Virus record (IMG/VR): IMGVR_UViG_3300010300_000053
Coordinates: 1-32,727 of that record
Reading direction: 5' to 3' (one strand)
DNA length: 32,727 nt
DNA from: a virus
Shown here: piece after piece, positions 1,798 through 32,355 of the stretch
Layout: each line of letters begins with the position of its first letter
Position numbering within the stretch: the stretch's first letter is position 1
Notes under the pieces: model-generated
The model's input: the letters and a program-made list of their open reading frames with translations, nothing else
Told to the model about the DNA's origin: nothing
Database searches by the model: none
Made by a program: the position numbers and the translations under genes

Positions 1798-2598
1798 TTA
1801 AATATCAGTTTGTTGTGTTGGACTGTATTCTTTGGAGTCAGTAAAATCTTGCCATGTCTCACTAAATCCAAAATCATCTCCAAGTTCTGCTGTGATTGGA
1901 TCTGGTACTGCTGTATACCTCATTTCCCTCTTAGCAGTTTGAGTATTTGTATTTGAATACATATCAACTTGAACCTTACGAATTAAACCTTCGGTAGATT
2001 CTGCAATTGGTCCAAACATATAAGTCTTTGCACTAAATCTAAGAGTATAAATTAGTGCCCTTCTTGCTTGAAAAGATCCCTCATAATCATCTTGAAAATC
2101 AATATTATCAAGAACAATGGGAATATCTTTTTTCTCACCAATTGAGTCAATCAAATCAATTGTGATATTGAAAGATGGTTGAAAAAATGGTAGAATCTGT
2201 TCTATAATTTGTAAAGCATCATCATTTAACTTAGTAAAAATACTCAATTCAAATCCAATTGTATATGGAACTGGCATGAATACTTTTTTAACATTTCCCT
2301 GATCATCACATGCCTTAAATGTTTGTGTCACACCAGTTTTTCTGGCAGCATCATATTGAATACTAACCATTTCAAATGACATTCTTGGTAATGTCAATGC
2401 GACAGGTTTATTTAATTCTGCTTGCTCCCTTATTTTAGCAAGAAACTTTTGGGTAGGACCATAAGAAAGTGCAACTTTTGTATCATCTACTATAGAACCA
2501 TCTTCTTTTAAATGTCTAATATTAATGTCATTAAATAAAGTTCCAAAACCAATAATGGTTTTTCTTATTATTTCGTGATAAAAATAAGTTCCTAACAT
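1798..2598 (-). CDS. 15: Tail terminator / sheath stabiliser, gp15-like
   Basis: The product has 266 residues, close to the 272 of T4 gp15, which caps the finished tail as a hexameric ring and forms the joint to the neck. The N-terminus (MLGTYFYHEIIRKTIIGFG) and the segment KPVALTLPRMSFEM are the parts I recognise as typical of marine T4-like gp15. The fold appears mixed alpha/beta without repeats or membrane segments. The start codon overlaps the gp14 stop by one base (TAATG), so translation is probably coupled. Its position between gp14 and gp16 is exactly that of T4. The C-terminal 40 residues are acidic and polar and may be a disordered tail. Confidence 0.87.
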   Translation of the reverse strand: MLGTYFYHEIIRKTIIGFGTLFNDINIRHLKEDGSIVDDTKVALSYGPTQKFLAKIREQAELNKPVALTLPRMSFEMVSIQYDAARKTGVTQTFKACDDQGNVKKVFMPVPYTIGFELSIFTKLNDDALQIIEQILPFFQPSFNITIDLIDSIGEKKDIPIVLDNIDFQDDYEGSFQARRALIYTLRFSAKTYMFGPIAESTEGLIRKVQVDMYSNTNTQTAKREMRYTAVPDPITAELGDDFGFSETWQDFTDSKEYSPTQQTDI

Positions 2599-4031
2599 TA
2601 ATATTCTCCAAAGGGATTAGTTTCTGTAAAATCTAATATGTTGTCTGCTTCAATTTCAAATTGTTCATTGGAATCATATTCATCCTCAAAACTATTTAAA
2701 TCGTGATTTTTGACCATATATCTTGCGGATGAAGACGATCCAACTACCGTTTCACCAGCATAGAATTTACCTGTATTTAGATATACTTGGAGATCGATAT
2801 TGATAGGTTGATCAAGAGCATTAAATGTAGTGTTAAAGTCTTTAACTCTTGCAGTAACTCCAGAACTTTGTCCCACTACCTCTTCATTATATACAAAAGT
2901 TCCAACACCAATTGTGGAAACTCCAGCAATGGTTATGGTAGGTGCTTCTGTATATCCTATTCCAGCATTTAAAAGTCTAATAGATGATAATTTGCCATCA
3001 GAATTGATTGTGGATACTGCACTTGCTCCAGATCCACCTCCACCAGAAATAGTTACATCTGGTGGTATTGCATATCCAGATCCCTGATTCTGAATACTAA
3101 TAGATTTGATACTAAACTGAGTTCCTCCAATAGAGCATGTTGCAGCAGCTCCTGTTCCTCCTCCACCCGAAATGGTAATTGTTGGTGCTTCTACATATCC
3201 AGATCCACCATCAATGATTTCAATCCTTAAAATTGATCTCACATTCGCAACACTAGTAGTAATTGCAACTGCTGTAGCAGCAGAACCACCAGATAAAATG
3301 TTTGGTGGATCAGAAAAAGTTACCGTTGGTGTAGAAGTATATCCAGATCCATCATTATTCAATGTGATTGTATTTACAGAACTATTTGATATTGTGGCAG
3401 TTGCAGATGCTGTATTTGCAAACGGTGCTAAAGATAATGTTGTAATATATCCTTCGTCTTCTGTTACAGAATCAACTTCCTCTACAGTAGTATTAATTTC
3501 TTCGTTTTCATATTCATAAAGTTCACATTGTAGTTCATAAATGTAATTTCTTCCCAATTGATAAAATGGTTTTTCAAATTCAACTCTTTTGACTTCAAAT
3601 AATCTCTCACCAAGAGGAAAATAAATTAGATCTCCTTCCAATGGTCTCTCGACACTGTTCAAATCAAACACATCATCACTTTTACCTTCTCTTACTCCAG
3701 CAGCAATTCCTTCTAAAAATGGTGATATAAATTCCTCGTATCGTTCTCTAGAAATAATTAAATTGACTTCATTTTTTAGTCTCAATCCAAATTTAGTCAT
3801 AATATCACTATCTGGAGCGTATCCATCATAATTATTCAAATATGCTTCAATCAAAAATGAATCATCAAATTTTGATGACTGTATTTCTCTAATTATATTA
3901 TCCTCTTTAAATACTTTTCGGGGTAGATAATATACATCAACACCATATATTTTTAATTGTTCATTAATTAAATCTTGAACAAGAAATTGTTCATTGGTAG
4001 AACCTTGTAAGAAAAAAGGATTTAATGCCAT
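2598..4031 (-). CDS. 14: Neck protein gp14-like with inserted GGSGY repeats
   Basis: T4 gp14 (256 aa) closes the head after packaging and provides the neck to which the tail docks. This product has 477 residues. Residues 1-200 (MALNPFFLQG, then YYLPRKVFKEDNIIRE and LIISRERYEEFISPF) look like a normal gp14, and the end (NPFGEY) also looks native. Between about residues 205 and 385 lie four copies of a beta-rich repeat of the form GSGYxxxPTVTISGGGGxGAxA. Without this block the protein would be about 300 residues, near the usual size. The same repeat occurs in the giant baseplate protein and in gp8. The insert is a plausible surface decoration on the neck. The gene sits 6 nt after gp13 and overlaps gp15 by one base. 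Confidence 0.87.
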   Translation of the reverse strand: MALNPFFLQGSTNEQFLVQDLINEQLKIYGVDVYYLPRKVFKEDNIIREIQSSKFDDSFLIEAYLNNYDGYAPDSDIMTKFGLRLKNEVNLIISRERYEEFISPFLEGIAAGVREGKSDDVFDLNSVERPLEGDLIYFPLGERLFEVKRVEFEKPFYQLGRNYIYELQCELYEYENEEINTTVEEVDSVTEDEGYITTLSLAPFANTASATATISNSSVNTITLNNDGSGYTSTPTVTFSDPPNILSGGSAATAVAITTSVANVRSILRIEIIDGGSGYVEAPTITISGGGGTGAAATCSIGGTQFSIKSISIQNQGSGYAIPPDVTISGGGGSGASAVSTINSDGKLSSIRLLNAGIGYTEAPTITIAGVSTIGVGTFVYNEEVVGQSSGVTARVKDFNTTFNALDQPINIDLQVYLNTGKFYAGETVVGSSSSARYMVKNHDLNSFEDEYDSNEQFEIEADNILDFTETNPFGEY

Positions 4032-6222: not shown

Positions 6223-6429
6223 TTAATTACCCAATCCACTATTTAGCACCTGCTTTAATAAACATTTTAATTCATTAATCTCATTTCTCATGTCATCAAG
6301 TTCTTTTTTTCTTAACTCTTGCCTTGTCTTTGAGTTTACATATTGATTGTATGAAGTGCTATCACAATTTATGATAGCACCACTATTTTCGTCACGATAT
6401 AAATTTGGATGTCCTTCTACTTTTATCAT
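6223..6429 (-). CDS. Conserved small phage protein with C-terminal coiled coil
   Basis: The product has 68 residues. The N-terminal half (MIKVEGHPNLYRDENSGAII) resembles a short protein that is widespread in marine T4-like phages and normally lies in the structural cluster. The C-terminal half (LRKKELDDMRNEINELKCL) has a clear heptad-like spacing of Leu/Met/Ile and should form a short coiled coil. Its start overlaps the stop of the large preceding frame by four bases (ATGA), which suggests translational coupling to the baseplate or fibre protein upstream. A partner or assembly factor for that protein is possible, but no biochemical role is known to me. Confidence 0.7.
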   Translation of the reverse strand: MIKVEGHPNLYRDENSGAIINCDSTSYNQYVNSKTRQELRKKELDDMRNEINELKCLLKQVLNSGLGN

Positions 6430-9400
6430 CTGACTGCTATTGCCCTCAAATCTGAGATTCTTGGAGTTACAGCCTGATTAGTTGAAGACATTACAATTTT
6501 AATGCTAAATCCTGTAAATAAATCAAGATTATCTGCAGTGAATTCATACTCAAGGAATTGTCCATCCAAACTTGCAGGAACTCTTCTATCAGGAAGACCA
6601 CTGTTTTTAGATTCATCTACAACTAAAAATCCATCAGTTGTTTCATTTAAATTTGTATATCCTGGGAACAATTCAAACGATTGTTCAATCTCACTAGAAT
6701 CTGCTCTAACCAAATTATAAAGGACTCTAAAATCAGTAGATTCTGGTCTCTCAGCAGTTAAGATAACTTTTAATGATGATGCTGGATTTTCAAGACTTAC
6801 CGTATTTGAGTAGTATACGGATGCATGTGGATCATTTAAGATAGAATTGACTCTATTATCAGATGAATAATTTGAAATAGGATTATTCAGTCTATTTGAA
6901 TAAAATTCAGTAAATGCTGTGTCAAGATTTAATATTGGTGAAAGATTTGAATTTTGAGTATTAAATGTAATTGCAGTTGTGAGAGATTTCTTTCTTGGTA
7001 AAGAAGTTAAATATTCATTCTGATTTATTTCAGAACAAACAATTCTTGGTGTGTTAAAAGAATTTAATGTATTTAATTGGATACTTTCATATCCATTATC
7101 ATTGAAAGAACTTTCTGTTCCATCTACACTAGTACCACTAACTGTTCTTATAGTAGCATTTGCAGATGTTAAAGATCCTGGAGTTTGAATATCATATGTT
7201 GGAACTACCCCACCATATATGATATTTTCTGTTGCAGTTACGTTAGATCCACCTAATACATTAGTATCATTAAAAGAAATTTGTGGTGCTCCAGAAGTTG
7301 TTGCATCTCCACTCCTATCTTTATTTCCATTTGATGAACTTCTATCAAACTTGACATAATAACTATCTAAATCAATAGGTTCACTAATCGAAGTTGTAAT
7401 GCCATTAATTCTTCTCAGTGAAACTCCGGCAAGTTCATATTTTTGTACAACTGATCCTGTTGGATGATTAATTGCAATAGTATTATCAAATCCTCTACCA
7501 CTTGCAGTAATATTGAGTTCTCCATTAGAGACTGAATCATATTCGATAATTTCAGTTCCAATTTTTACATATCCTGGATAAGATCCAGAAACATTTTGTC
7601 CCTCAAATGTGGAGAAGTTTGATGTATTTGCAATACTTATTGTATTAGTTTCTGAAGTAGTTAATTCACTCGAAAGTATCGTTGATGGGACATTAGATTC
7701 TATTTGATCTAAAACCAATTTATTAGTCGAAGAATACATTCCATGGTTAAAGTGATCAACTCTTACATATTCTCCATTGTTAATGCCACCATCTCCTGTA
7801 GCACTAGTAATAGTTGTTCCTGCTAAAGAAACTAAAGTTCCAGAATCATTAAAGTAACTTACGGCAGCACCAACAGCAAATTCTTTACCAGATCCATTGA
7901 TTCCAAACTCACCCTGAACATTAGTAAGATATAATGTATCTAATCCTGTAATTGCTCCGATAGTAATTCTTGCATCTCTTCCTGTAGTTGTCGAAGTTGA
8001 TGATGTAACAATTCCAACAACATCACCTACCTGATATCCATTACCATAACTAATTGCAGAACTTGCGGCACCTGTAATAGCACCATCTGCATCAGTTGTA
8101 ATAAGTAGTTTCAGATTTTGTCCTCTACCAACTATATTGAAAGTATCAACAATCTCATTTGTAACACTTGCTGGATAATTTTGACCGGCATTTGTTATTT
8201 CGGAAGCAGTATTTACTGAACTTCCAGATCCAACAACTATTGCAGATCCAGAGTTTCCATTTACTCCAGAAAGTTTTCTTCCTGCAGAAAGGGTACTAAT
8301 AACACTTGAATTTGTTGTTGTAGTTAAACCAATTCTTCCTGTTTTTGGTAAAACAGTAATTGGATCAGGAATAAGAGTTGGAATATATCCATTACTCTCA
8401 TCAAGGGGTGGATTATAAAAATATGCAGTTCCTGTTGTAGAAGTAAATTCTGCTTTGTATAATTTGAATTTCAAATCTTGGTATTGATTTGTAGTCCAAA
8501 TAGATCCATTTTGTGATTTAAACAATGAACCTAAAGCAAACTGTTGTGTATATCTAATAGAATCGACATCGGGTAATGTTTGTGTGCTAATGGTTTTTTC
8601 ACCCATAACAGCAGTCCACAATTCATAAGCATCACTTTGATCAGAAATAATTACAACAGCATACTCTCTTCCTGGAGATAAGAAAATTGGTTCTGGGAAT
8701 TTAACATTAGTTGCAACTTCTCCCGTAGTTGAAGTTTGAATATTTACAACTTCGTTGCCATTTTGATCTACACCTCGTGGTCTGAGAGTTACTGGTTTTC
8801 CAATAACATCTAATGTAGGAGTGCCAAGTTCAACAGATCTAATTTCAACTCTAACTTCTGCATTTCCACTATCAATATTAGCAAAGAATAAATCCACAGA
8901 AGTTAAAAATACTCCATTTACATCATCACTAGTATCGATCGTTGATTTGACATCAATATTTCCACCTACTGTGAAAGTTTGTGCTAAAGGATCTCTTCTA
9001 CGTCTTCTTCTCCTTGTTATAGTTCTAGTAACTTGTGTGGTTATAGTTCTGCGGAATCTTATAACAGTTCCAGTTGCTGTATAGTTAGTTTCCGCATCTG
9101 TTATGGCAGTGCTTCCTGGAAGAACAGGTTGATTAGTACTACTTGATGTTAACCTATAGGTTCTAGTTCCTGTTCTTACTCTTACTGATGGTGCTGGTGA
9201 AGAGTATGGATTTCTCAAGAAGAAAGAACCAATCAAATCTCCAAAATTATCAGAAATTAATCTGATTGGTTTCACAAAAGCAATAGCACCACTAGTTTGC
9301 CCAACTAGTTGCATACCTTGCTGAATGTATCCAGAGAATCTACCCTGTGCTTGAGCAGAAAGAGATTTAGTATCTACATTAAGAACTTTTGAGCTTGAAC

Positions 9401-11021
9401 TGTACCCTGCTCCTAATGAAGTTTTATCATATGGATTTTGGTTGTATATAGTTGTAGGATTATCAAATCGACCAGACTTATGATTTGGAGTACAGACTCT
9501 AAATCTAATTCTTTCTCTTCCATTTATTGTACCAACTACAGTTTCACCAACTCTAAATGCAGCCGATGCCCCTGAGATTTGAAGTGTTCTATTATTTGCA
9601 ATTTCAATTAATTTTGGAATTACATCAACATTACTTTTACCGTCAAGGAATTGATAAAATCTTGTATTTGGTTTTAGTGAACTAGATCTAAACTCAACAT
9701 TTCTTGATCTTATAAATTGATCTTCTGAAGACCCAACTAGATCATTTCTAACACTAGTTCTAACAGAATCACGAACAGAACTTCTTCCTCCAGTTCTTCG
9801 TATTACTCGTGTAATGCCTCGATTTATTCGTCTATCTGGAAGTTGAACTCTTCTAGTCCATGAATCGGACTCTGGAGATAATTGTACTTCACCAGTGTAT
9901 ACAATAACATTAAATGGGTTTACATTTTCTACCCTAGTTGCAAATGGTTGCTCCAACCAATCAATTTCATCATAAGCAAGTGTAATTGATTTTCCAGTTT
10001 TTTGTACTGAAGGATCTAATAATACAAAATCTTCATCTAAATCTATATCTTCTGGAGACACATCTTCCTTAGAAGCAACCAATGATTCTAATGTATCTCT
10101 GGAAATATCGGAAATTAAGTTGGAATCATCAGAATCAACAAGTGTTGTTGATTCCTCATTAATTCTGGAATAATCTAAAAAGTCATCAGCAAAGAATCCA
10201 CTCTTAAATCTATCTAATCCTTCAGAATCTCTAATTTGTAGTGTTTGTGTATTTAATTCTAATAAAGAAAGACTAGTTACTTCTTCTAAAGTCTCAACTC
10301 TATCTTCAATAGATCCAATATCTCTCATAGTATATCTTCTGTTATCAGTCAAAACTATTTTTGCATCATCTGGATTGTAAAGATATGCAGGAAGAGTTAT
10401 TGTTCCTAATTCTAGTAACTCACTATTTTTTACTGGTGCTTTTGGATTCTTAGCAGATAATCCTTTATCAATAATAAAATTTCCTAAAGTATCTAAGTAA
10501 ACTTTATCAATTCTTGAAAGATAGAAAGATTCTGTTACCAGAGATCCTTCACCTGGAGATAATAATCTTAATGGTACACTATTAAATTGTGTGGTTCTTG
10601 CATTAAAATCAAATGGAGATCTATCAGTAGTTACTAATGGATCAAAAAATGCAACTCTTGGCCTAAAATCAAGAGTATCAGATGCTTTTATAGAACCTCC
10701 AATATTTGGAATATCATTTTCAAATCTTTCATTATCGTAACTGAGAACAGTAAAAACATCACCACCATCATTTGTTGGAACATTATATCGATCAAAAACA
10801 ACTAATATTCTTCTTGATGGATCTTGAGTATTTTTGTTTCTCACAAGTTTCGAATAATCATAATATTGTTCTTTTTGTCCACGATCAAGTGTGAAAGATA
10901 AGGTAATATCCTTATAAGATCCATTAACAATAGATTCTACCGAAGTTCTTATATTACTCTCTTCAAAAGTAACATTTTCCCCTACAGAGATTGTTTTTTC
11001 ATTTAAATAAACTACACCCAA
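6426..11021 (-). CDS. C-terminal part of DUF4815-type baseplate/fibre protein (frameshifted)
   Basis: This frame gives 1531 residues if it starts at the TTG at 11021, but that start has no convincing ribosome site and the frame is open far upstream (to 11849), so the true N-terminus is probably the gene at 11794-13662. The first 120 residues (ILVVFDRYNVP, then DTLDFRPRV) look like the end of a DUF4815-type domain, which is cut off from its beginning. From about residue 673 follows DPLAQTFTVGG and a domain with LTSVDLFFANID, VEIRSVELGTP and GSLFKSQNGSIW, a pattern I know from large structural proteins of marine T4-like phages. Near residue 1150-1190 is an ITASGRGFDNT turn module that also occurs in the giant protein. 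It sits between gp8 and the neck genes, where T4 encodes gp9 to gp12. Confidence 0.75.
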   Translation of the reverse strand: MGVVYLNEKTISVGENVTFEESNIRTSVESIVNGSYKDITLSFTLDRGQKEQYYDYSKLVRNKNTQDPSRRILVVFDRYNVPTNDGGDVFTVLSYDNERFENDIPNIGGSIKASDTLDFRPRVAFFDPLVTTDRSPFDFNARTTQFNSVPLRLLSPGEGSLVTESFYLSRIDKVYLDTLGNFIIDKGLSAKNPKAPVKNSELLELGTITLPAYLYNPDDAKIVLTDNRRYTMRDIGSIEDRVETLEEVTSLSLLELNTQTLQIRDSEGLDRFKSGFFADDFLDYSRINEESTTLVDSDDSNLISDISRDTLESLVASKEDVSPEDIDLDEDFVLLDPSVQKTGKSITLAYDEIDWLEQPFATRVENVNPFNVIVYTGEVQLSPESDSWTRRVQLPDRRINRGITRVIRRTGGRSSVRDSVRTSVRNDLVGSSEDQFIRSRNVEFRSSSLKPNTRFYQFLDGKSNVDVIPKLIEIANNRTLQISGASAAFRVGETVVGTINGRERIRFRVCTPNHKSGRFDNPTTIYNQNPYDKTSLGAGYSSSSKVLNVDTKSLSAQAQGRFSGYIQQGMQLVGQTSGAIAFVKPIRLISDNFGDLIGSFFLRNPYSSPAPSVRVRTGTRTYRLTSSSTNQPVLPGSTAITDAETNYTATGTVIRFRRTITTQVTRTITRRRRRRRDPLAQTFTVGGNIDVKSTIDTSDDVNGVFLTSVDLFFANIDSGNAEVRVEIRSVELGTPTLDVIGKPVTLRPRGVDQNGNEVVNIQTSTTGEVATNVKFPEPIFLSPGREYAVVIISDQSDAYELWTAVMGEKTISTQTLPDVDSIRYTQQFALGSLFKSQNGSIWTTNQYQDLKFKLYKAEFTSTTGTAYFYNPPLDESNGYIPTLIPDPITVLPKTGRIGLTTTTNSSVISTLSAGRKLSGVNGNSGSAIVVGSGSSVNTASEITNAGQNYPASVTNEIVDTFNIVGRGQNLKLLITTDADGAITGAASSAISYGNGYQVGDVVGIVTSSTSTTTGRDARITIGAITGLDTLYLTNVQGEFGINGSGKEFAVGAAVSYFNDSGTLVSLAGTTITSATGDGGINNGEYVRVDHFNHGMYSSTNKLVLDQIESNVPSTILSSELTTSETNTISIANTSNFSTFEGQNVSGSYPGYVKIGTEIIEYDSVSNGELNITASGRGFDNTIAINHPTGSVVQKYELAGVSLRRINGITTSISEPIDLDSYYVKFDRSSSNGNKDRSGDATTSGAPQISFNDTNVLGGSNVTATENIIYGGVVPTYDIQTPGSLTSANATIRTVSGTSVDGTESSFNDNGYESIQLNTLNSFNTPRIVCSEINQNEYLTSLPRKKSLTTAITFNTQNSNLSPILNLDTAFTEFYSNRLNNPISNYSSDNRVNSILNDPHASVYYSNTVSLENPASSLKVILTAERPESTDFRVLYNLVRADSSEIEQSFELFPGYTNLNETTDGFLVVDESKNSGLPDRRVPASLDGQFLEYEFTADNLDLFTGFSIKIVMSSTNQAVTPRISDLRAIAVR

Positions 11022-11793
11022 TATGTTTGCGGATGGTTTTGTAACAACTCTTGCAACAGAACCTGAAGAGCTTATAATATTTTCTCCAATTAATGCATTT
11101 GAAGTTACATTTGCGGATGAGGTGAATTCAATCCTATCTAATACTGGATCTGATGAATTGAGTGATTCGTAAATTGCTAAAACTTTTACTACATCTGGAT
11201 AGTTTAATGAAATTTCTTCGTCTTGAACTCTTAATCCATAATATTGATTGTAAGTTAAACCATCATTTTTTGTATTGTTTTCGGTAGTTCCAGATTCTTC
11301 TAATTTTGATCTTGTTACATTCAGTATATTACTTCTTGAAAAAGTTTTTATCTTACTCTGAATTCCATTTTTAATTGCTGTAACGTTGACAACAGTATCA
11401 TTACTAGAAAGTGCGTTATTTAAAGACTTTAAAGTTAAATTATCACCAGATAATTCAAATGAATCTTCACTTAATGTTTGAATTGTTCCGTCACTGTATA
11501 CTACACTATATCTTTCTTGATCAAATGTTGACCAACTTGCACTAGAAATTCCAGAAAAATCTGATGATGCTGAAAGTACTATTTCATCGTTTATATCTAC
11601 ATCCTTACCATCTAATTGATCAATAATATAAAGATTCGATGATGATAAATTTACTGAAGATGCATTTGGTTCTGGTAACCTTGCATATAAAGTTCCAGAA
11701 CCTCTTACTTCTGGAGATCCAAGGAATCCATTAACTTGAATTTCAGAAGATGGTAAATTACCATCAAAAACTCCAAGAACACTAGTAATAGAA
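11022..11793 (-). pseudogene. Open coding segment without start codon, linking two halves of one gene
   Basis: There is no annotatable gene start here, yet the minus strand is open for its whole length in the same frame as the 1531-aa product. I translated it base by base and found no stop and no in-frame ATG, GTG or TTG. The encoded sequence is ordinary virion-protein sequence: LSSITSVLGVFDGNLPSSE, then LYIIDQLDGKDVDINDEIV, then GLTYNQYYGLRVQDEEISL. It has the same AT-rich composition as its neighbours. The frame continues upstream past the stop of the 622-aa gene and closes only at a TAA at 11850-11852. So this is the middle of one gene of about 2,400 codons that needs a +1 shift between 11849 and 11794. 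Confidence 0.8.
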
Positions 11794-11803
11794 CTAAGTT
11801 CTA
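11789..11803. repeat. Short inverted repeat over the frame-ending stop codon
   Basis: Six-base arms (tagaac and gttcta on the plus strand) flank three bases. On the minus strand this reads TAGAACTTAGTTCTA, and the stop codon TAG of the 622-aa frame lies inside it. In RNA it could form a small hairpin. It is short and AT-rich, so it may be chance, but it coincides with the point where the reading frame changes. Confidence 0.4.
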
Positions 11804-13662
11804 GATAAAGAATCTGCAGAAACTGAAGATACTCTATTATAGGTCTCTGTTAATAAACCAACCTGCTGATATCTAACGATAGTATCAGTCTTTATTCCGA
11901 CAAATGCTTTTCCTGTAGATGTTACAGTGGAAATACCTCCACTTTCAGCAGTAATTGATATTTGAGAAATTCCATTGGAAAGTCTAAATTTTTCCAAAAC
12001 AGCATCTGCAGTAAAATCTGTTCCATATCCGAATGGATCAGTTTGTTTTACTGATTTTATATTTTGTGTATTGTAAACATGAACTTCTTTTATGCTTCTG
12101 GATATATCAAGTCCGTTAACAATCAAAGATTCACCCTTTACAAATGATCCTGATGTTTGTCTTAAGTAAATTACAGATGAAGATCCGTCTGCAGTCGCAA
12201 ATCCAGTTGCACCAGAACTTTTTCCCTTTACGAAGAAAGATTCTTTTATTTCTGATGAGGTTACTGCCTGATTTAAAGTTACTTTTGTATATGTTTGAAT
12301 ATCATATAATCTCAAATCCCAATTAGTTGTGTTATCAGAGTACGGAGCATCTTTTAAATTAAAAGAATATACTCTAGCTTCTCCTATCTGTACATCTGTT
12401 GATCCAAGTTGTGAGTATAAATTAATAGTTTGTCTTATTTTTGGTGTGTTTGAAACATTGTTAACTCTCAAAACATTTCCCATTTCAAAGGGAACAGTTA
12501 CATTTGAAATTGTTTCAGTATCTCTTGATTTATCAAAATCTAAGATAGTATTTCCAGTCTTTTCAATATCATAACCTCTAACATAAGCTTTTCCTGGAGA
12601 AATTTTCAAACATGCCAAATCATTTGATGGGATGTTTCCTTGTTCTGTCAATTCTCCAGGAAAAAAGACCCCATCATTACCAAGTCTATCATTTAATGAG
12701 TTTTCTACATTTAACTCAAATGGTACTGTGGTATAGTCTCCAGATTCATCATATGTTCTTTCTGCAATATAATCTCTTATTAAATTATAATTAGTTTTAG
12801 TGGTAATTTTTTCAATTTTTCCATTTTTAACTCTCAATAACTCTACGAAATCTGTGTCATTAGTATCATCTAAAGTTTTTTTATCTAAAGTTAATTCTAT
12901 TTTTAATCTATCTGCTCCAGGTGCAGCAAAATTTGTAAATCCTTTTGCATTATCATATAAAGACTCATCATCTTTTGCTGTTACCAAAGATTCTTTTATC
13001 TTTAAACCAACTCTATACGAAGGTGTATTTGTATAATAATCTAAGATGATATTTTGAGAAGAGACATTAACAAAATATCCTCTAATGAAGTATACACCAT
13101 CATTAATAAAAGATGCTGATCCAACTGATGTTGCGGAAGAAGCAATTAATGATGCAAATGAAGTGCCTCCGGAAATCGTAGTGTTTCCATAAGTTACATT
13201 TTCATTTGCAAATAATAATTCACCATCTTCAAATTGACTATACTCAAAATTATTATCAGATCCTAAGTATTTTACATATAATGTAATGTATTCTAATTCA
13301 TCACTTTCATCTGGAAAGACTACTTTTTGAATTTTAGCAGTGTTTCCAGAAGATTGTCCTGTTACGGTTTTTCCTACAAAATTTTCAATGTAAACCGATA
13401 CATCAGTACCAAATTGTGTAGGATTTATCTTTACCGAATAAAACTCATTATCATATGTAATTCCACCAGGAATTACTACAGATCCTTCTTTAAATATATG
13501 ACTACCAAAATCTTCAACTTGGTTTTGTAATATTGATTGAAGAGTTGTTAATTCTCTAGACTGAACTGGAAACCCTGGTTTGAAAAGAACTTTATAAAAA
13601 TTCTTTTCACTATCAAAATCATCGTAATATGGATTGATATTTAAATTTGTTTTTTGGGACAT
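11794..13662 (-). CDS. DUF4815-type baseplate/fibre protein, N-terminal part
   Basis: The product has 622 residues. The start (NLNINPYYDDFDSEKNFYKV, then FPVQSRELTTLQSILQNQVE) is the hallmark of DUF4815-type proteins of T4-like phages: a virion component near the baseplate that probably carries or connects fibres. It continues with VVIPGGITYDNEFYSV and YFIRGYFVNV, then ACLKISPGKAYVRGYDIEKT, all recognisable parts of that domain. The protein ends abruptly after YNRVSSVSADSLSRT at a TAG, in the middle of what is normally a continuing beta-rich region; the sequence that should follow lies in the +1 frame downstream. It starts 6 nt after the gp8 stop. I therefore treat it as the front part of a single gene spanning 6426-13662. 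Confidence 0.8.
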   Translation of the reverse strand: MSQKTNLNINPYYDDFDSEKNFYKVLFKPGFPVQSRELTTLQSILQNQVEDFGSHIFKEGSVVIPGGITYDNEFYSVKINPTQFGTDVSVYIENFVGKTVTGQSSGNTAKIQKVVFPDESDELEYITLYVKYLGSDNNFEYSQFEDGELLFANENVTYGNTTISGGTSFASLIASSATSVGSASFINDGVYFIRGYFVNVSSQNIILDYYTNTPSYRVGLKIKESLVTAKDDESLYDNAKGFTNFAAPGADRLKIELTLDKKTLDDTNDTDFVELLRVKNGKIEKITTKTNYNLIRDYIAERTYDESGDYTTVPFELNVENSLNDRLGNDGVFFPGELTEQGNIPSNDLACLKISPGKAYVRGYDIEKTGNTILDFDKSRDTETISNVTVPFEMGNVLRVNNVSNTPKIRQTINLYSQLGSTDVQIGEARVYSFNLKDAPYSDNTTNWDLRLYDIQTYTKVTLNQAVTSSEIKESFFVKGKSSGATGFATADGSSSVIYLRQTSGSFVKGESLIVNGLDISRSIKEVHVYNTQNIKSVKQTDPFGYGTDFTADAVLEKFRLSNGISQISITAESGGISTVTSTGKAFVGIKTDTIVRYQQVGLLTETYNRVSSVSADSLSRT

Positions 13663-15249: not shown

Positions 15250-18200
15250 TTACGAAGTAATCTTCTCATTGAGTGCTCCAGTTTCTCTTAACCCATCATT
15301 CCTTCTTTGAATTGATGGGAATGTAGATAAACCAACATCTACAGTTCTTCCGGTCACTCCGATAGAAATTGGTGAAGATGATCTTGTAATTGTACCAAAA
15401 CGACCCCAAGAAAAGTCTCCAACATGATTACCAATCGTAGATAGTCCAGCAGTTGGGGTAGAAGAATCTATATTACAAGTTACTATTCCAATAGAACCAT
15501 TAGAACTTACCAAACTTACATAATAAATGTTATCAAGGAAACTTGTTCCTATTCCAACTACTTCAGAGTCTGAAGAATCTACAGAAATAACACCAGATCC
15601 AATGCTAGTATTCTTAACTAAAATTGGGTATCCAGGTTGTAGAATATTTGGAGAGTTATTGAATGTTCCATCAACCTTTAATGTGAATTTCAATGCAAGT
15701 TGACCAGAGTTAGTGGTGACATCAATTGCTGTTATAATGCCAGAGAATCCTTTAATATCTTCTATTTTAGTGATAATTTCAATTTCTGGATCTGGTCTTT
15801 CAACAATAGTCAATGGAGCAGAAGCATAACCGAGTCCTGGATTTGTAATATTAATTGGTGTAGTTAAAGATCCATTACTTCCGACTGTTACAGTTGCAGT
15901 AGCAGTAGATCCAACACCAACACCAATTGTTGGTGGGGCAATAAATTTAACATCAATTGTAGACCCAGAATATCCAGATCCACCATCAACAATTGTTAAT
16001 AAATTCACAGATCCATTTCCATCAATTGATGAGGTAATTTTTGCTGCAGATTTGTTATCTTGCCCAACAAGAATTGCCCCGAATGTATAAGGTGAAGAAT
16101 TAGCATATCCAAAAAGATCAGCATTATCTACAAATATCTCATTATCGGATGATGAAATATCTTTGATAACTTTTGCAGTTGGATAAACTTGCGAAATTAA
16201 TGATTGTCTCGTTTTATAAACAAATTCACCATTTACGGATCGATCAGTCTTTTGTTTAGTCCATGACATTGGCTTTAAATTATCCGTATCAATACCATCT
16301 CTATCATAGAAGTTGGTCTCAAATACATCGGATAGAGACAAATCAAATATTGTTCTACTATCTTGTGCAACTGTTCCAGAAATTTCATTATTTTTGAATA
16401 TTTGAACAATATCACCTCTTTCTAGTGTGGGGAGAATATTAGTTACGAAAACATCATCTACTCCCTTTGTTCCTCTATAGAAAAATACTGCAAGATCATC
16501 ATCTGTTTTTGGTGGGTTTGTGAATACGAAAGAAGTTCCACCATTAAATGTATAGGAAACTCCTGGATCTTGTAGAATGCCATTTATGAATATTAATAAT
16601 GAGTTTGACAGGTTAACAGAACCCTGCTCATTTTCATCAACTTCAAAACTTAACAATGATCCATTGTATAACAGTGGGAATCTCAATCTTTCACCATCCT
16701 GATAAGATTTTAATGAATCTATGTAATCAAATTCACCAAATTGCCAAGACCCAAAATTATCACTAAAAGTATCTAATACTGTAAGTTCATATCTAGAAAG
16801 TGGTGAAGAAAGTCTTCCATCAGTTACTAATCCAACAGGAGTAAATACATCACCTTTTCTGAATGAATATCCAGATCTCTTAATTGTGAAGTTGGAAATT
16901 TCAAAATAAGTTGATCCTATACCAGTAGAGTTGCTGGAACCAACTTCAACATCTATCAATAGTCCAACCCCAGTATCTGTTGTAGCACCAACTCCAATTC
17001 TAGATATGCCAGTAACTTCAAGATTTTCATAAGACGGTTCCGAAACTATAATAGTTGGATTTGTATATCCACTTCCACCAGTAACAATATTAAATATAAC
17101 GGTTCCACCTATTCCAGCAACTCCAGTGATGCTTGCTGCAGTTCCAATATGACCTTCTTCAAAGATAGTAACTCCAATTGAAACTATTCCATTATATCCA
17201 GATCCATAAGATCCACCAGCAAAATTAGTGCTGAGATCAGTAATAGATCCTGCAGAAACTACAGCACTAACGGCAGCACCAGCAAGAGGTGCATATCCAA
17301 GTCCACCAGAAGATCCAAGAGAAACTATAATTCCACCTCTAGGAATTTGATTTTGATTAATATCATTTTCAACTGCTAAAACACTACTTGGATCACCAGA
17401 ATCTGTTCTAATCCCACTGAAAGTAATCTCTGTCGATGTACCATTATCAACAATACTAAAGTTATTATTAGGATTATTATCTGTTGTAGGTGTTTGGAAA
17501 ATTCCATTAATGAAGACGACACCATTATCACCAATACTACCTATTCCAGAAGTATTTGCTCCACCAACAGTTAATGTGAATGTTCTTCCGATACCAGTAA
17601 ATTCACTACTAATATCATCATATATTCTGTTAGTATCATAACTATTTCTAAGGAATACTCTTCCAGTAAAATCAGAAGTCTCAAAAATAAAATTATTTTC
17701 TGTTCTTGTTATAGCAGTATTTCCTCTTGGTGCCTTTGTAAAATAAATGGTATCATTAACAATATTATAAGACCCTTTATAAACATCAATAGTATCACCA
17801 TCATTATGTGATGTTGCCGAAGATCCAACAAATCCTCTATTAACTTGTACTAATTTTTCATTACCAGTATTTGTAATTGGTCCTACATTAAGAGTTCCAA
17901 AACCAACATTAACAATCTCCATATATTCATCATTAACTTTCAAGATATCATTTGGATTTAAAGTAGAAATTCCACTTAATGCAAATATTTCATCCGATGA
18001 AGAAATACTTCCACCATTTCCAGAAAGTGATGTTTGTAGTTTAGTTAGAATTAATGGATATTGTGTAATATTATCAATCGTAATAATTGCCTTTGTATTA
18101 GATTGACTCATCGCAAATATGTGCTGATTCCCTTCACCAAGAGATGTAAATGTTAAAGGGGATCCAGATTTTGTATCTGAAACTTGGAAAGTATCATTAG

Positions 18201-21200
18201 TTTTATTAACAACAAACACTGAAGATGGTAATGGTGTCCCACCACCATAAGCTAAAGGAGTTGCACCAACACCAATAAATGTAGATCCAGGAGTATAAAT
18301 TAACTCTTCATTTTCACTGAAGAAATGATCTTGTATTGAAAATACTCCAGTAGATGGATTTAAGATACTCGAATCATTAGGATTAAATTTCTTTGCAAAA
18401 ATTGGTGTCCCATCAGTTGTCAATACGAAATCTAATTTATTAATTCTATCTCCATTGATAGCAAAATATTGATCTGCTAATACAGATTCTATAGAATTGC
18501 CAATCGTTAGATCTGGATAGATATTAATATTATCAATATCCGAATACAAACACTCATTGAAAGAAGAGATAATGATATCATCTGATGAATCTGGATAGAA
18601 CTTAAGTTCAAATTTATCAGATCCTACATATTCACCACCAAATGTTCCTATTCCCAAATTATCATTGACAGAAAGGAATTGTGCCTCTCTTACATAAATG
18701 TTAGATTGATCTTGGACCAAGAAAACATTATATAATGATTTTGTATTTCCAATACCAACTTCGACAAGAGCATTTACTGAATCAAAGTTGGACTTATCCA
18801 AAGTAATGACAGAAGTTGATAATCCAGAAGTTGTGGATGAATAATTGGATTGATATATTGCAGATCTTTCATTTCCATCTGATTGTCCATCCAATTTAAA
18901 TCTATAAGTCCCTACTCCTACAGAAGTATTGCCGAAACCTATTATTTTAGAATTAACATCAATATCATACGAAGTATCATTAATAAATTGTAAAACTAAT
19001 GATCCAGAGTCAACAAAAGCTGTAAACAACCCTACGATGTTGTTAGATCTTCCAATAGGAGTGTTATCAAAGTAGTATTCAGAAATAGTTGTGTCTGTTC
19101 CATCATATGTGACAAGTAATTCTACAAAATTAATTTCATTTGTAGAATTTTGAACAACATGGGATTTTACATATAAGGAATTAAAATCTGATGCGGAGAA
19201 TTGTGCTACACTCGATGTAGTAGAAGACGGTACTTCTAAAACTGATGACACAACATCAACAAATCCAATTGAAGTAGTTCCCAGTCCTACTCCAGGAAGA
19301 ACTTTTTTCTGAATGTACTTTAGATCATATTCTGTATCGAAAGGATCTTCAGGACTAAATCTTAAATAAGAGACTCCAAATTCATCAATTTCAATAGAAA
19401 AGTCTGCGTATACTTGATTTCCTTCTTTATTAGATAAAGAATTTTTTTCTAATATGTACGAATTATTTGAAATTTCATCATTAATGATAACAACATTGGT
19501 TAATTGTACTTCTGTCCCTTCAGAGTTAGAAACTTTGAATAAGTAGTTTGAATATGTCTCAGTTATATCAATTTCAAATAAATCTTTGTACTCCAGTGGA
19601 TCCGAATTGAAGTTTGAGAATTGATCACTAATATCGTCTATTCTCAATACAATATTTGATCCTATTTCATTGTAATTTACAAGTTTTTTAGAATTTAATT
19701 TTATAAACCTTGCAGTATTGTTTACAACATCAACATCAGTTACAAAGTCAAAATTATAAATTGTATCAACTCTTTTTTCGTTAATAATATCTTTTAGAAT
19801 TGTTGTTTGGTTTGAAGTAGAATTTACTCCGATTTTTTCATCTGGAAGTACTCTGGAAATAATTTGAGTATCTGAGAAATTTTTTAATCCGGATGTATGC
19901 ACCAAATTATTTACAGGAGTTTTAATATCTTTCCACTGCTGTAAACTCTTCACAGAATAAGATAGGTTTTGATAATAATCGTTGTCAGGTAATACCTGAT
20001 AATCTTCATTTAATTTTCCTGTTTCATTAGACCACCCCTCATTTTTTCTCGATGAGAAATCAACTTTAAATTTTCCATCATATGAGTTTAAACTTTTTAT
20101 TGTGGCAGTATTTCCAGTGGTTTTTCCTGTAATTACCTCACCTACAGATAAATCATAGCTACCAAATACTTTGATTGATGAATTTCCATCATACTCGACA
20201 ATTTCAAGATCTCTTTCTATTCCATTTGAGATAATTTTTTCTCCAATTTCAAAGAAAAATGGACTTAATGATATGGTAAATGATGGATAATTTTTCCTAT
20301 TTACAATTGTACCTGTAGAATCTTGAATAGTTTTTGCAATTCCAGTATTTGTAGTCAAATCTGAAATGTTTATAGTAATTCTAACATCATCTACTCCACC
20401 ACCATCATTGTAATTAGATATAGTGAAAAACTTATATCCATAATCACTTGAATTAAATCCATCACCATCAGAACTATATTTTTGAATACCTTCTATAAAA
20501 ACTTCATCGTTAGTATCAAATGGATTTTCACTAAATCCACTATCAGGTGTGGTCAAAATACAAGTAAAAATTCCAGATGAAGAAGATTCTACTTCTTTAA
20601 TACTAACACCATTGGTATTGTTTATTGCAAATAATTCGGCAGATTGATCAGAAATTCCTTTTGGTGCATTTGAAATGACCACTTCAGAAATCGAAGGTCC
20701 AACCAAAATTGATTCTAGAATCCCATTATTTAAAACTTCTCTTGTATCATTATTTACTATTGCAATTTGTGGTGGAGTAATATAATTATTTCCACCACTA
20801 ACCACAGTTATTTCATCTATTGTATTAGAATCACTTAGTGTTATGCTTGGAGATATAAATGCTTGTGGTTGTAAAGTTCTGTCGGAAGAATATTCAAATC
20901 CTTCATTAATGATCCTTACTTGATTAATAATACCAATATCATTTGTTTTTGGATTGACAGAAAGATTTTTACCACTAGTGGAATCTGATCCAGATAATTT
21001 TGGAAGTTTTTTATATCCTTGCCCACTAGAAATAATTTTAATTTTGTCAACAGATCCTTGGGTCAAACTAGATGTAGTTGAATATTTCAATTCATCACAT
21101 TCGGATGAAGTGTATGATAGTTTTTCTGGATTTTCTGAAATATTAATTCTAAATGTTGTTACTCCAACATCAAATATTGAATATGAATTTGTGTAAACAC

Positions 21201-24200
21201 TATCCACGTAAGATATTTCTGAATAATTTTTGACATCTTTGTCTGATGTGCTTATATACCCAGATTTTTCTAAATTATAATACAGTTTTTGTGGTATATT
21301 TTTAGAATAATTAATCGTTAAGGATGCAGTTGATGATACACCAACAGTCCCAACACCAGATATGTTAAATGATGTGGTTGATCCAGTCGAAACAAAATTA
21401 TTATTAAATTCTTGATCGTAATAAATTTTAAATTCATATCCACTGAGTGAAGAATCTGAAAGATTAAATACGAGATTATTATTTTTAACTGAGTAAATTT
21501 GTGGATTGATTAATGAGATGGATTGTGAAGAACTTCCTGTAGAAGCAAAACTTACCACTACAGGTGGATTTGAATTTGCGTTCTTAAGAGTATCACAGAA
21601 TTTTATAGTATTTTCATCAATTTTATAGATGAAATATTCACTCTCAGTAAGTGGAGATGGTCTCCTGTATCTTTTAACTATATCATCACCAGAAGAAACA
21701 ATATAGAAATTTTCTTCATCTGGGGAGACATATACTCCAGATGGATTTAAAAATGCAAACCTATCAATTTCAACACCAGTCGTGATGTCCCATGGTGTTG
21801 ATAATTCATAAATGTATAATTGGTCTACAGAAATTCCCACCCAATATACTATGGTGCCAGAAGAATTAATGTGTATATCGTAAGGATTACCATCTGGTGG
21901 GTTAATATCTAATCTGCCCGTAGAATCTCCAGAATAAGATGCTGTTGTAATGTCCCATGGGGTAGAAAGATCTAATTGATGAATAAAATCTCCACTTCTT
22001 CCAATTATGTAAAGTACAGTACCATCATATTTAAAATAAATTCCTTCCGGAACTAATTGAACAAATCCTAGACTATTTCCAGACCCAACATATAAACTTA
22101 CATTATCATAACTTGCAGTACTGATGTCCCATGCAGTAGACATAGAATATTGATATATTCTATCATTCGTATGCCCACAAACCCAGAACTTAAGACCATC
22201 ATCTCTAATATAAATTCCAGATGGGCTGACATCCTCACTAGTAACGTCTATAAGATTTGTAAATGTTGCCGTGCTTGGACTCCATGGTGTTGAAAGTTCA
22301 TACTCATTAACTTCATTAGCAGATCTACCAACAACATACATCTTCGTGCCATCAGGTTTGAAGAATATTGATTCTGGAGTAGAATCTTGAGAAGTGGTAT
22401 CGATCTGATCATTAGTATCAATTAAATACTCAAAAGTATCATCTTCATAATAAACCTTATCGCCAGTTTCTAATCCGTGATCAGTGATAGTGATTTCATT
22501 TGTAGTTGTATTAATTCCGGTGGAATTAAATCCAATAGGATTAATTACAATTGCATCAATTTCCGACTTGTAAAGAACTCTGACTGCTGTTGAAGTTCCA
22601 ATACCAACCGAAAGATTTGGTTTTACGGTGAGAGATATTGTATCTCCATTTGAAAGTCCATGTGAGGTTGATACAGAAACTGTAGATACGATTTTTTTAA
22701 CATTCGACAATTCCTGTTTGAATGTAGATTCAAAATAATAATCATCAACATCATCACCATTTGTTCTGAAGAATACCTCATCTCCGGATATTGTTGTTTT
22801 TATTCCAATAGTATTTGGTGACTTATTTACAACATATACTGATGGTGGCAAATCATATGGGGTGCTTGTTGGGGTATTTGAGATAGAAATTGCACCATTC
22901 CCATTTGCATTAAAATCTACTAATTGATTTGTAGTAAATTGATGATTTTCCAAATATATCCTTTGTGTTGGGATATTTCTGGTAATAGTTTCATTGCCTA
23001 AAGAGAAGGAAATTTCATTACCTACTCCCGTAATAGTTCCAACACCAATCGATTCATTTGGATTAAAATATACTTTATCGTCAAATTTAGATTCGAAGTA
23101 ATCTAAGTCTACATCCAAAGTAAATTTGTTTGGTTTAATGGATATTTGTTCTCCAGTAGTATGTGATATTCCGGGAATGCCCCTCTTAACTCTTAAAATA
23201 TTTTTATCAGAAAATACATTCAATACCTCAAGAGTCTCTGTACCAATGCCAATATTAGTTCCCGGTAAAATTGAAGAAGGAACATTAGTTACATAAATTT
23301 CTAATGATTCTCCAGATGCTTGAATTTCTGTAGTTAATCCGATATTATTGGATACAGGTACTGTAATCCTATAGGATTCATTTAATTCTGATAAAATTGA
23401 TGTTGAAAATCCAGAAATAATTACAAAATCACCACTGGATAATTGGTGGAAAGGTTCAATATACACTTCAATTTTATCTTTATCCCATACAAAAATTGAA
23501 TTATTGTATGTTTCTAAAGTTGTTGTAATATCATTAATATTTTTTCCTTCAATAGATGAGATAATTGCTTGGAGACCACCACCTTCTGTTCCATCATTAT
23601 CGAAAGTTAATTTATCACCAACTTTATAATCATCTCCAGAATTAATTATATCAAACCCAGAAATAGATCCTCGACTTACAGAATCAACTTCTATTTTTTG
23701 CCTCTTAATCTCATTTGTTTCTGTAATAAAATCATTATCTGCAAACTGTTCGGCAACTTTGTATGGGAAAGTATTTCTAACTAAATTTGAGTTATTAAAA
23801 TCAAAATCTTGATCTAATTCAAAATTTTCACTTAAAGTATTAGATCTATAAGTATTTCCAATAAAATATGGGAATTGTGGATTTCCTACAGAATCTATTG
23901 TTGCATAGTATGCGTAAACTCCATTTGGAAAATCAGTTGTTTTTGAATATCTTCCATTATGTTGGTCAAGATCTCCACTCGAAGGACTATACTTATAATC
24001 TTCGACAAAAAACCCAAGTGGAAAGTCTGATGTTGATGGTCTATCTAAAATATTAGAAGAATCTTTTGTATAACTCGATTGTAATGTTTTTACTACGGAG
24101 TTTAAATCTGTAGGATCACTTAATGCATAAGATCCATAAATTGGATTTCCATCATATGCCCACCCAATAATTCCAGACAATTCTGCATCATCTTCTTGGA

Positions 24201-27200
24201 AAGAAGTTCTTATATTCTCAGAATATGCAGAAACAAAATATTGCAATTTATCGTCAATATCTTTATAAGTTTCATAATTATTAGGTGTCAGTTTCTCAAC
24301 TTCATTTATAGATAATGCTCTAACTGAAGAATCAAATACAGCATCAGATCCAGAAGAGACTACATTTACCACAGTGGATGTTGAATATCCAATGCCAGGA
24401 TTAATAATTTCTACATCTGAAATTTTACCATTAGATATAAGAGCTCTAAGTGTTGCTCCACTACCAGATCCGGTTGGATCAAATACTTCTAAATCCGGAA
24501 CTGAAAAATATTCAAAACCACCAAACTGGAGATTAACTTGACTAATTGAACCATTTACAATAATTGGTTCAATTGATCCGTTTCTACCATTTTTGATACT
24601 TAAAATTGGTTTTAATTCATTATTAATAATCGATGACCCATATCCTGTACCAGAATCATACAAATAGAGGTCAGAAATAGATCCTTTTACTTCTGCTGTT
24701 GCAGTGATAGTATTTGTTTGAATTGCACTCGCAACTCCAACTGTAGTAAATTCTATAGAAACTTCAACATCGGGATACTTAAATTCTTGGAATCCAGACC
24801 CTGCTGATGAAAATTTCTCATAGTTTTCTTGATCAAAATTGGATGTTATAGTTCCACCAATACCAGCATCACATAACCTAAAAGAATTTTCATTATCTGC
24901 TAAAATATAATATTGGTTTGTGGTTGATAATCCAGAAATACCGGAAGTTCCACTAACATACTCTACAATATCTCCATTTAAAAATCCGTGATTTTCAAAT
25001 TTAATTAAATTTTCAGATACAGATACTTTTGAAGAATCGACCAATAGTTTTCTATTAGTAAGAGATCCTCCGTCAAGAATTTTAATTTCGGATATTGTAT
25101 TTTTTTCCTGACCAACTAAGAATTTATGTGTTCCAGTAAGAGAAGAGGAAGAAAATTCTATAACATTTGATAATGATGAGTAATCTTCAAAAGTTGGGAA
25201 TAGTTGAATAGTTGTATTATTATCTACTTTTGCAAAATATGTTCCATTATTAACCAAAGTCGATGATCCCAATCCAATAGAAATGTCAGGATTTCCATTA
25301 TTAACATATACTATTTCTTCACCATTACTAAAATTATGATTGGATAAAAATTCTAATTGTGATGTAGATACATCAATTCCACCACCACTTGTAGTTGGTC
25401 TTGCATCAAATAAAACTTCTCGCCTTCTCTTAACTAAAATAGGTTCAAAACTTCCACCTTTAATATTAAGTCCACTAACATTTACTGACAATACCTGGTT
25501 TATATCAAAATCTTGAGAATCTACAAATATATTTGTTACAGTTCCGGATAAAACAGGTTGAACTAATGCAGTTGTTCCTACACTAGAAGAAACTTCAATT
25601 TTAGGAGGATTTACAACATCAAAATTACTACCACCATTCAATACTGAAACCGAATCTAAAGGTCCATAATAAACTTTATCCTGAGACTTATAGTTAAAAA
25701 TTTCAACACCATTGATCAACATTCCAGTAGACCCTGGAATAGTATTTTCATTAGATCCACTTTTTACTAAATTTAAATCAAATTTTTTAAAGATATTAGA
25801 AGATCCTAAAGTTCTTGATTTTTGGGATATTAATGTAAACTTATGAGATTCTAACGGGATTTCTGAGGATGCAAATTGAAGAGCATTAGAATCACTACCA
25901 ACAAATGAACGTGATGAATAAAGTCTTATAGTCTTTGGATTTGTATCAGATACTCTGACAAAATATGATCCAGTGCTTAGTCCAACAAGAGATTTTTGAT
26001 CTGGTTGATAGAAAATTTCATCTCCAGTCACAAATGGAACATTTTCATCAAAAAGAATTTCTGTATAAAAATCTGATGACAATCCTGCTAATTGACCCGA
26101 AGAAGCATTTAAAATAGATTGACTAAGACCTTTGTCTAACTGATATGTGTAGAAATTAGATTGTTCTGAATCATATGATGGTAATGAATTTGATGCTACA
26201 TATGCAAAGTCACCATCCACATAAACATTTTGAATATCTGATATTAAACTCTCATTTCCATATTCAAAACTTACTTTTGAACTTGATGCCTTATTAATTT
26301 TTCTTCTTAATGCATAATTTTCTGGACTTCCTGTAGATATTTGTGTACCAGAAATATCAAATCCAGATAAAAGTACAATATTAGATTCAAATTCAATATT
26401 ATCACTTACATAAGGTTGATCACTCGACTCAGTTGGATACAAAATTGTATTTGTATCAATATCAATGATTTCAACTTTGTCACCTTTTTTAAATTGTGAT
26501 CTATCAACAAAAGTTTTTAAAGTGACACCATTTCCATCGAAACTTTGAATTTGAACCGAACTACTTGTGTTATAAATCCAAGAGTTTGCAAAAATTTCTT
26601 TATATGTTTTATTACTTTCTGGATTTCTTATTAGTTCTCCAAGATTTTTGACTGTTAATATTTGGCCCTCTTCTGCAGAGACAAAATCCGATGACTGCTC
26701 AAATTCTCTTAATACCCCAGTCAATCTTAATTCTACTTTTTTTGATGTGTCACCATTTTCATAACCAAAATAGGTATCTGTGGAAGAAAATACATTACTA
26801 GTTTCTGAAATTTCTTCTACAATTCCAGAACAATTTAAAAACTGATTGATATTTTTATCTGTATATGTTATAGTGTTATTTCCAGATTTAATAGTTCCGG
26901 AAGGGTCAAACCCAATCGTTGAATCGACAGATATAACTTTAGAATCAATAAGAACTTTTTCTAAACACTTTGTGTTTGGTGTAATCTTAAAAGTACCTTC
27001 AATTGTATTGGAATCATCATATCCAACAAAAAGATAAATTTTAAAGTATTGAATATTTTTTCTAGTAAATGGTTCAATAGCAGAAATAGAAGCTTTTGTT
27101 GCAGTATCGTCAGTTTTGAATAAAGTTTGTCCAACAAGTTTGCTAGGATCTCCAGAAATTGCTTCTGCAACGGCAATCTCTCTTCTAAGAAACTGTGCAT

Positions 27201-31435: not shown

Positions 31436-31597
31436 TTAAATCTTAATAATCTTAGTTTCTAAATCTTGTGGTCTTGGAGAACCTTTCTGATAATACTCTA
31501 TCGAAAGGTCCTCCATAATATCAAAGTATTCCTCCTGAGTCAATCCCTTATACAGAACTTTTCCTTTCTGGAGAATTGTATACTTTTCGTCAGACAT
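31436..31597 (-). CDS. Small acidic/basic hypothetical protein (53 aa)
   Basis: The product has 53 residues. The first half looks like a beta hairpin (YTILQKGKVLYKGLT) followed by a helix (QEEYFDIMEDLSIEYYQKG), a common shape for tiny adaptor proteins of phages. Its start overlaps the glycosyltransferase-like gene's stop by one base (TGATG), so it should be translated together with that gene. The next start lies 9 nt past its stop. No function is known to me. Confidence 0.68.
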   Translation of the reverse strand: MSDEKYTILQKGKVLYKGLTQEEYFDIMEDLSIEYYQKGSPRPQDLETKIIKI

Positions 31598-32355
31598 CAA
31601 ATCACTCTTGTCTTTTCGTGACCAACGCGTATACGAGGATCACACCAAATCTCAAAGCCTGCTTCCTTTGCATCCAGACAGAAACTTACATCCTCTCCAC
31701 ACATGTCCTGAACTTCCCCAGACTCAAAGACTTGCATCTTTGGTGCAAACCATGGATACTTCATCTCCTCGTGCTCAAAGACTCCGTACTTGATCAACAA
31801 CCATCCAAATCCTGCATAATCAACAGTAAATGGCTTGCGACGTTTGCCGATACTCTCAAGTGTTTCATGATTCATTACACCACCATTGTTACGGAAATCA
31901 TCCTCTTCCATCCAGTGTGCAACACTCGTCGTGCGACCGTCTTCTGTACAATACCATCCACTTGCAATATCAACATCCATCAGAACCAATTGATAGAACT
32001 TCTCAGTGCTGAACACAATGTCACTATCAATCCACAACTGATAATCATATTGCAACTTTCCATCCCAGGGAACTTGATCCGGTCCTCGCAGTACATTCGC
32101 ACCTAAACATTTGCATCTTGCAAAGTTTACCATCGATGAATAGTCTTGCGAAATCTGGATGCTTGCCCCTGCTTGTACAAGATCAAAACAAAGTTGTACA
32201 AAATTTTTCAGATACGTATAAGAAACTCCTCTACCAGGTAGACAAAAGACAATGGCCTTGCCTTTTACCATTTCCTTTGCTTTCTCATAGTCCCATTCTT
32301 GCTTGCTCTGAGACGCTTGTGGTGCCTTTGCTTTAACAGTAAATCCTTTAGCCAT
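31597..32355 (-). CDS. Glycosyltransferase-like protein (GT-A type)
   Basis: The product has 252 residues. It starts with a polar stretch and then a beta strand, KAIVFCLPGRGVSYTYL (about 33-49). The central QLWIDSDIVF (about 106-115) has the DSD form of the metal- and nucleotide-sugar-binding DXD motif of GT-A enzymes. Later parts fit an acceptor and catalytic side: YAGFGWLLIKYG (180-191), then CGEDVSFC (219-226) and a terminal VGHEKTRVI with a possible metal-binding His. It probably transfers a sugar to DNA, a virion protein or a host surface glycan; the substrate is not visible. Rough G+C is about 45% in the lines counted, above the structural genes, which suggests a separate origin. A sigma70-like promoter precedes it. 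Confidence 0.72.
   Translation of the reverse strand: MAKGFTVKAKAPQASQSKQEWDYEKAKEMVKGKAIVFCLPGRGVSYTYLKNFVQLCFDLVQAGASIQISQDYSSMVNFARCKCLGANVLRGPDQVPWDGKLQYDYQLWIDSDIVFSTEKFYQLVLMDVDIASGWYCTEDGRTTSVAHWMEEDDFRNNGGVMNHETLESIGKRRKPFTVDYAGFGWLLIKYGVFEHEEMKYPWFAPKMQVFESGEVQDMCGEDVSFCLDAKEAGFEIWCDPRIRVGHEKTRVI

Follow-up and report, generated by a model that had tools for sequence, protein, structure and literature searches.

A frame break in a phrog_358/DUF4815 virion gene of a T4-like phage contig very probably reflects a sequence error or recent mutation rather than programmed frameshifting

In T4-like cyanophages, the gene known as phrog_358, T4-GC 109 or 'VriC' is intact; in S-SRM01 (QPX48161.1) and P-SSM2 (PSSM2_113) it lies directly after gp8, and in most relatives a small ORF comes after it. 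The copy described here has the same place and matches these genes over both of its parts, but it has a frame break. Bacterial +1 frameshifting is known at CUU_U, UCC_U and homopolymer codons; in the release factor 2 gene (RF2, prfB) the site carries UGA C and is preceded by a Shine-Dalgarno element (PMC5009743, PMC10885494). Our literature search found no paper joining cyanophages with programmed frameshifting, or VriC with cyanophages; the papers naming DUF4815 were, by title, not on this gene.

The window, i.e., the whole stretch of DNA analysed, is an IMG/VR record of a linear virus fragment of 32,727 bases with a T4-like, cyanophage-type baseplate-to-neck gene block on its minus strand. 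The block includes a gp6-like gene, a gp7-like baseplate wedge gene (15250-27906; 4,218 codons), gp8 (ORF 15219-13669, matching phrog_438 and PF09215) and, directly downstream, the split phrog_358/DUF4815 gene, which starts at 13662 and ends at 6426. A fibre-assembly-like gene, head-tail adaptor and head-closure (gp13/gp14-like) genes and a tail-sheath stabiliser belong to the same block and strand. A predicted ORF of 68 residues (6223-6429, minus strand), which overlaps the 3′ end of the split gene by 4 nt, sits where most relatives have a matching small ORF; it is separate from the lesion and shows the 3′ end of the split gene to be normal. The gp7-like gene contains stretches common to several virion structural protein families, and phrog_701, 4406, 2885 and 19630 match both this gene and the gp14-like gene (2598-4031); a repeated domain that the two may share is suggested. 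At 31597-32355, a 252-residue phrog_1574 protein with a weak glycosyltransferase-type match adjoins the baseplate genes.

The initial annotation of this DNA described a 622-residue frame that stops at 11794-11796 and is continued in the +1 frame from 11849 to 6426, and took the two for pieces of a single ~2,400-codon gene divided by a net shift of +1; the present analysis bears this out. The 5′ part of the gene (11794-13662, minus strand) is a 622-codon frame that begins at 13662 and is ended by a premature TAG at 11796-11794. On the same strand the +1 frame stays open between 11849 and 6426, a length of 1808 codons including the stop; it is homologous to relatives from about 11804-11801 onward, the 3′ part being 6426-11801. 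Positions 1-561 of phrog_358 match the first part (E = 8e-199) and positions 1170-2054, the best stretch of two, match the second (E = 0). Similarly, positions 66-200 of Pfam DUF4815, in its N-terminal part, match the first part as the best of three stretches (E = 8.8e-39), and positions 371-565 match the second (E = 1.2e-19). At the level of sequence, these matches and the comparison with relatives confirm that both parts are one gene of ~2,400 codons and of one family. The match over both parts and the place downstream of gp8 are as in other phrog_358/DUF4815 genes; the single open frame of the family, about 2,330 to 2,516 codons in complete copies from relatives, is broken in the window copy at ~11802-11806. 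We take this copy as a damaged or mis-sequenced member of the family, not as a different family.

The break lies at about 11802-11806 (minus strand), where the window has two bases fewer than its 15 nearest relatives; in the nucleotide alignment with these relatives, the 2-nt gap falls exactly at the frame switch. Frame 0 fits the relatives' pattern up to a Ser codon at 11805-11803, and the +1 frame fits it from a Leu codon at 11804-11802, giving a frame-0 Ser and then a Leu/Phe-Glu pair in +1. Most relatives, the nearest among them, have 25 residues from Tyr/Phe-Asn-Arg-Val/Ile to Val-x-Gly-Val (NRV...V.GV), a spacing that the window matches only if two bases are missing, which argues for a two-base loss. 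When +1 and -2 joins of the two frames were scored against a profile built on 30 relatives, the top score, 298.6 bits, went to a -2 join placed after codon 11805-11803, with neighbouring -2 joins at 294-295 bits; the best +1 join scored 289.3 bits and the +1 join at ACT|TAG 286.6 bits. With score differences this modest, the base concerned can be placed only to within a few positions; even so, profile scores and nucleotide alignment agree in ranking -2 over +1. The interval 11794-11849 to which the shift had been assigned can be narrowed, with the break placed before the stop rather than on it; the gain of a single base is less likely, on the alignment and the profile scores, than a net loss of two bases relative to relatives. 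This shortfall in the family gene next to gp8 shifts everything after it into the +1 frame, and the TAG two to three codons later is its consequence.

Protein searches matched the first part of the gene to 1,434 phage records and an 808-residue query from the second part to 976, and further loci came from IMG/VR scans. Each fetched locus spanning the site was scored for a change of frame between its two sides. A single frame was kept in 147 of 147 loci, all of the nearest relatives included. As judged by contig names, 11 of these loci are duplicates and the distinct records number 136, none with a frame break at this site. Identity over the aligned gene ranged from 73% to 38%, the nearest relatives (L008, L009 and L010) being at 73%, 71% and 67%, and unbroken copies from cultured phages included those of S-SRM01, S-T4, P-SSM2, S-SSM7 and ACG-2014f. 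The case raised in the initial annotation, relatives in which the two frames are separate genes with their own starts, was not seen: relatives have one unbroken gene. Database searches, in collections from which very close records may have been removed, found no near-identical record for comparison, the nearest relative that spans the site being only ~73% identical, and a search of genome contigs gave only two distant matches, both in metagenome-assembled genomes. A metagenome-assembled genome labelled Euryarchaeota archaeon carries a relative of the split gene with 46% identity on NZRR01000014.1, which is probably a misbinned phage contig.

In the 22.7 kb of the window covered by relatives' ORFs, this is the sole frame change. 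In both halves of the gene, the third codon position varies more freely than the first two in comparison with the nearest relatives; against L009, identities at the three positions are.80/.88/.59 upstream of the break and.76/.86/.60 downstream. The persistence of this pattern beyond the break implies that the downstream part has not decayed and has been under normal coding constraint and, with no other break in the 22.7 kb, fits either an error or a mutation of very recent date. Taken together, we put at roughly 0.93 the probability that the lesion is peculiar to this contig, being a sequencing or assembly error or a recent loss-of-frame mutation, and is not programmed.

A programmed +1 (or -2) ribosomal frameshift, which would yield short and long forms of the protein, had been regarded as equally open. 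The arrangement itself, with overlapping frames and a stop inside the overlap, is in its favor, as is the 101-nt fold around the site (z = -2.96 versus shuffles). However, the two-frame arrangement is kept in 0 of the 136 distinct relatives, 5.8% of all 101-nt windows on the contig strand reach the fold energy of the site, and the relatives examined have differing structures there; RNA structure as a stimulator was rejected on the last two grounds. The 6-bp inverted repeat TAGAAC-TTA-GTTCTA reported around the stop is present but carries no information by itself. The window has 31 repeats of this 6+3+6 form (7-27 in base-shuffled copies), and the repeat was dismissed as a signal because it is not special. 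Nor does the overlap near the break contain a clear slip site: the ACT to CTT hop proposed in the initial annotation keeps 1/3 codon bases and scores 12 bits below the best join, and the protein made by a +1 hop lacks one residue compared with most relatives and scores 9-12 bits lower on the profile. A CUU_U, UCC_U or homopolymer context and an upstream Shine-Dalgarno-like stimulator are absent from the site, and its stop is TAG then T, not UGA C. As the arrangement is not conserved, no clear slip site is present and the product would be off by one residue, we rejected a programmed +1/-2 shift as very improbable, and conclude that there is nothing programmed about the frame break. A recent slip specific to this lineage, by which some ribosomes would restore the frame and so make short and long forms of a giant baseplate/fibre protein, has a smaller chance still of being correct. 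The same low odds attach to a separate second gene that has a start of its own, since relatives have one gene across the site and the +1 frame has no ATG, GTG or TTG between 11849 and 11022. A second gene starting at 11021 would miss ~260 conserved residues; with no usual start codon for ~830 nt of the +1 frame, an independent second gene was rejected.

There remain error and mutation, both of which the initial annotation had kept open and which gain from a break found only in this contig and a gene intact in relatives. We lean toward a sequencing or assembly error, i.e., toward the phage gene being intact and the contig consensus having dropped two bases. Consistent with this, the break is unique to the window contig among all 136 records and alone in the covered 22.7 kb, and beyond it 1,800 codons follow without further interruption. 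Metagenome assemblies are also known to retain residual indels, especially long-read ones (PMC6487183). The S-SKS1 copy, broken elsewhere by apparently two A-run errors, indicates that records of this gene are not free of such errors. On the other hand, the site has no homopolymer run, the most frequent source of errors of this type, and the part of the contig covered by relatives' ORFs showed no second indel. Two-base errors are, moreover, uncommon in short-read consensus sequences. Less probable, though still a substantial candidate, is that the sampled phage itself recently lost two bases, or that the contig represents a minority variant; the same sequence evidence applies to this reading. 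A two-base loss near short repeats and a weak imperfect hairpin could result from ordinary replication slippage, and a real deletion would truncate the virion protein at 622 of ~2,410 residues. Against a real deletion, the gene is whole in every relative sampled and sits beside the baseplate gene gp8, so that its fixed loss would probably be harmful, and there is no decay elsewhere in the gene. Error thus seems somewhat more likely than mutation, by about 6 to 4.

Cyanophage virion genes accordingly offer one candidate fewer for programmed frameshifting, and split virion genes catalogued from metagenomic contigs need checking against relatives. The unannotated copy in the S-SKS1 reference genome merits re-examination by its depositors. 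In S-SKS1 (HQ633071), the nearest cultured phage, the gene (HQ633071.1 118772-126331, equivalent to L001 8001-15360) is likewise broken in the record and has no annotated CDS; the locus tag SWZG_00161 is absent from the CDS list. Its break, however, is at about codon 270 in A-rich runs, near L001 8816-8851, with apparently two indels, both one-base losses, and its frame through the window's site is intact. A lesion shared with S-SKS1 was rejected because the S-SKS1 break is elsewhere.

Among described frameshifts, the window resembles that of RF2 in having a net +1 change around an in-frame stop. The RF2 site differs in its CUU_U, Shine-Dalgarno stimulator and UGA C, none of which the window has, its stop context being TAG T; further, the break in the window is upstream of the stop and is not conserved. 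The lambda gpG/gpGT tail-assembly-chaperone frameshift and its +1 counterparts also resemble the window, in that a tail-region gene is read in two frames. Those systems, however, are chaperone pairs that bind the tape measure protein, whereas the window has a 2,400-codon gene beside gp8 whose relatives are all in one frame.
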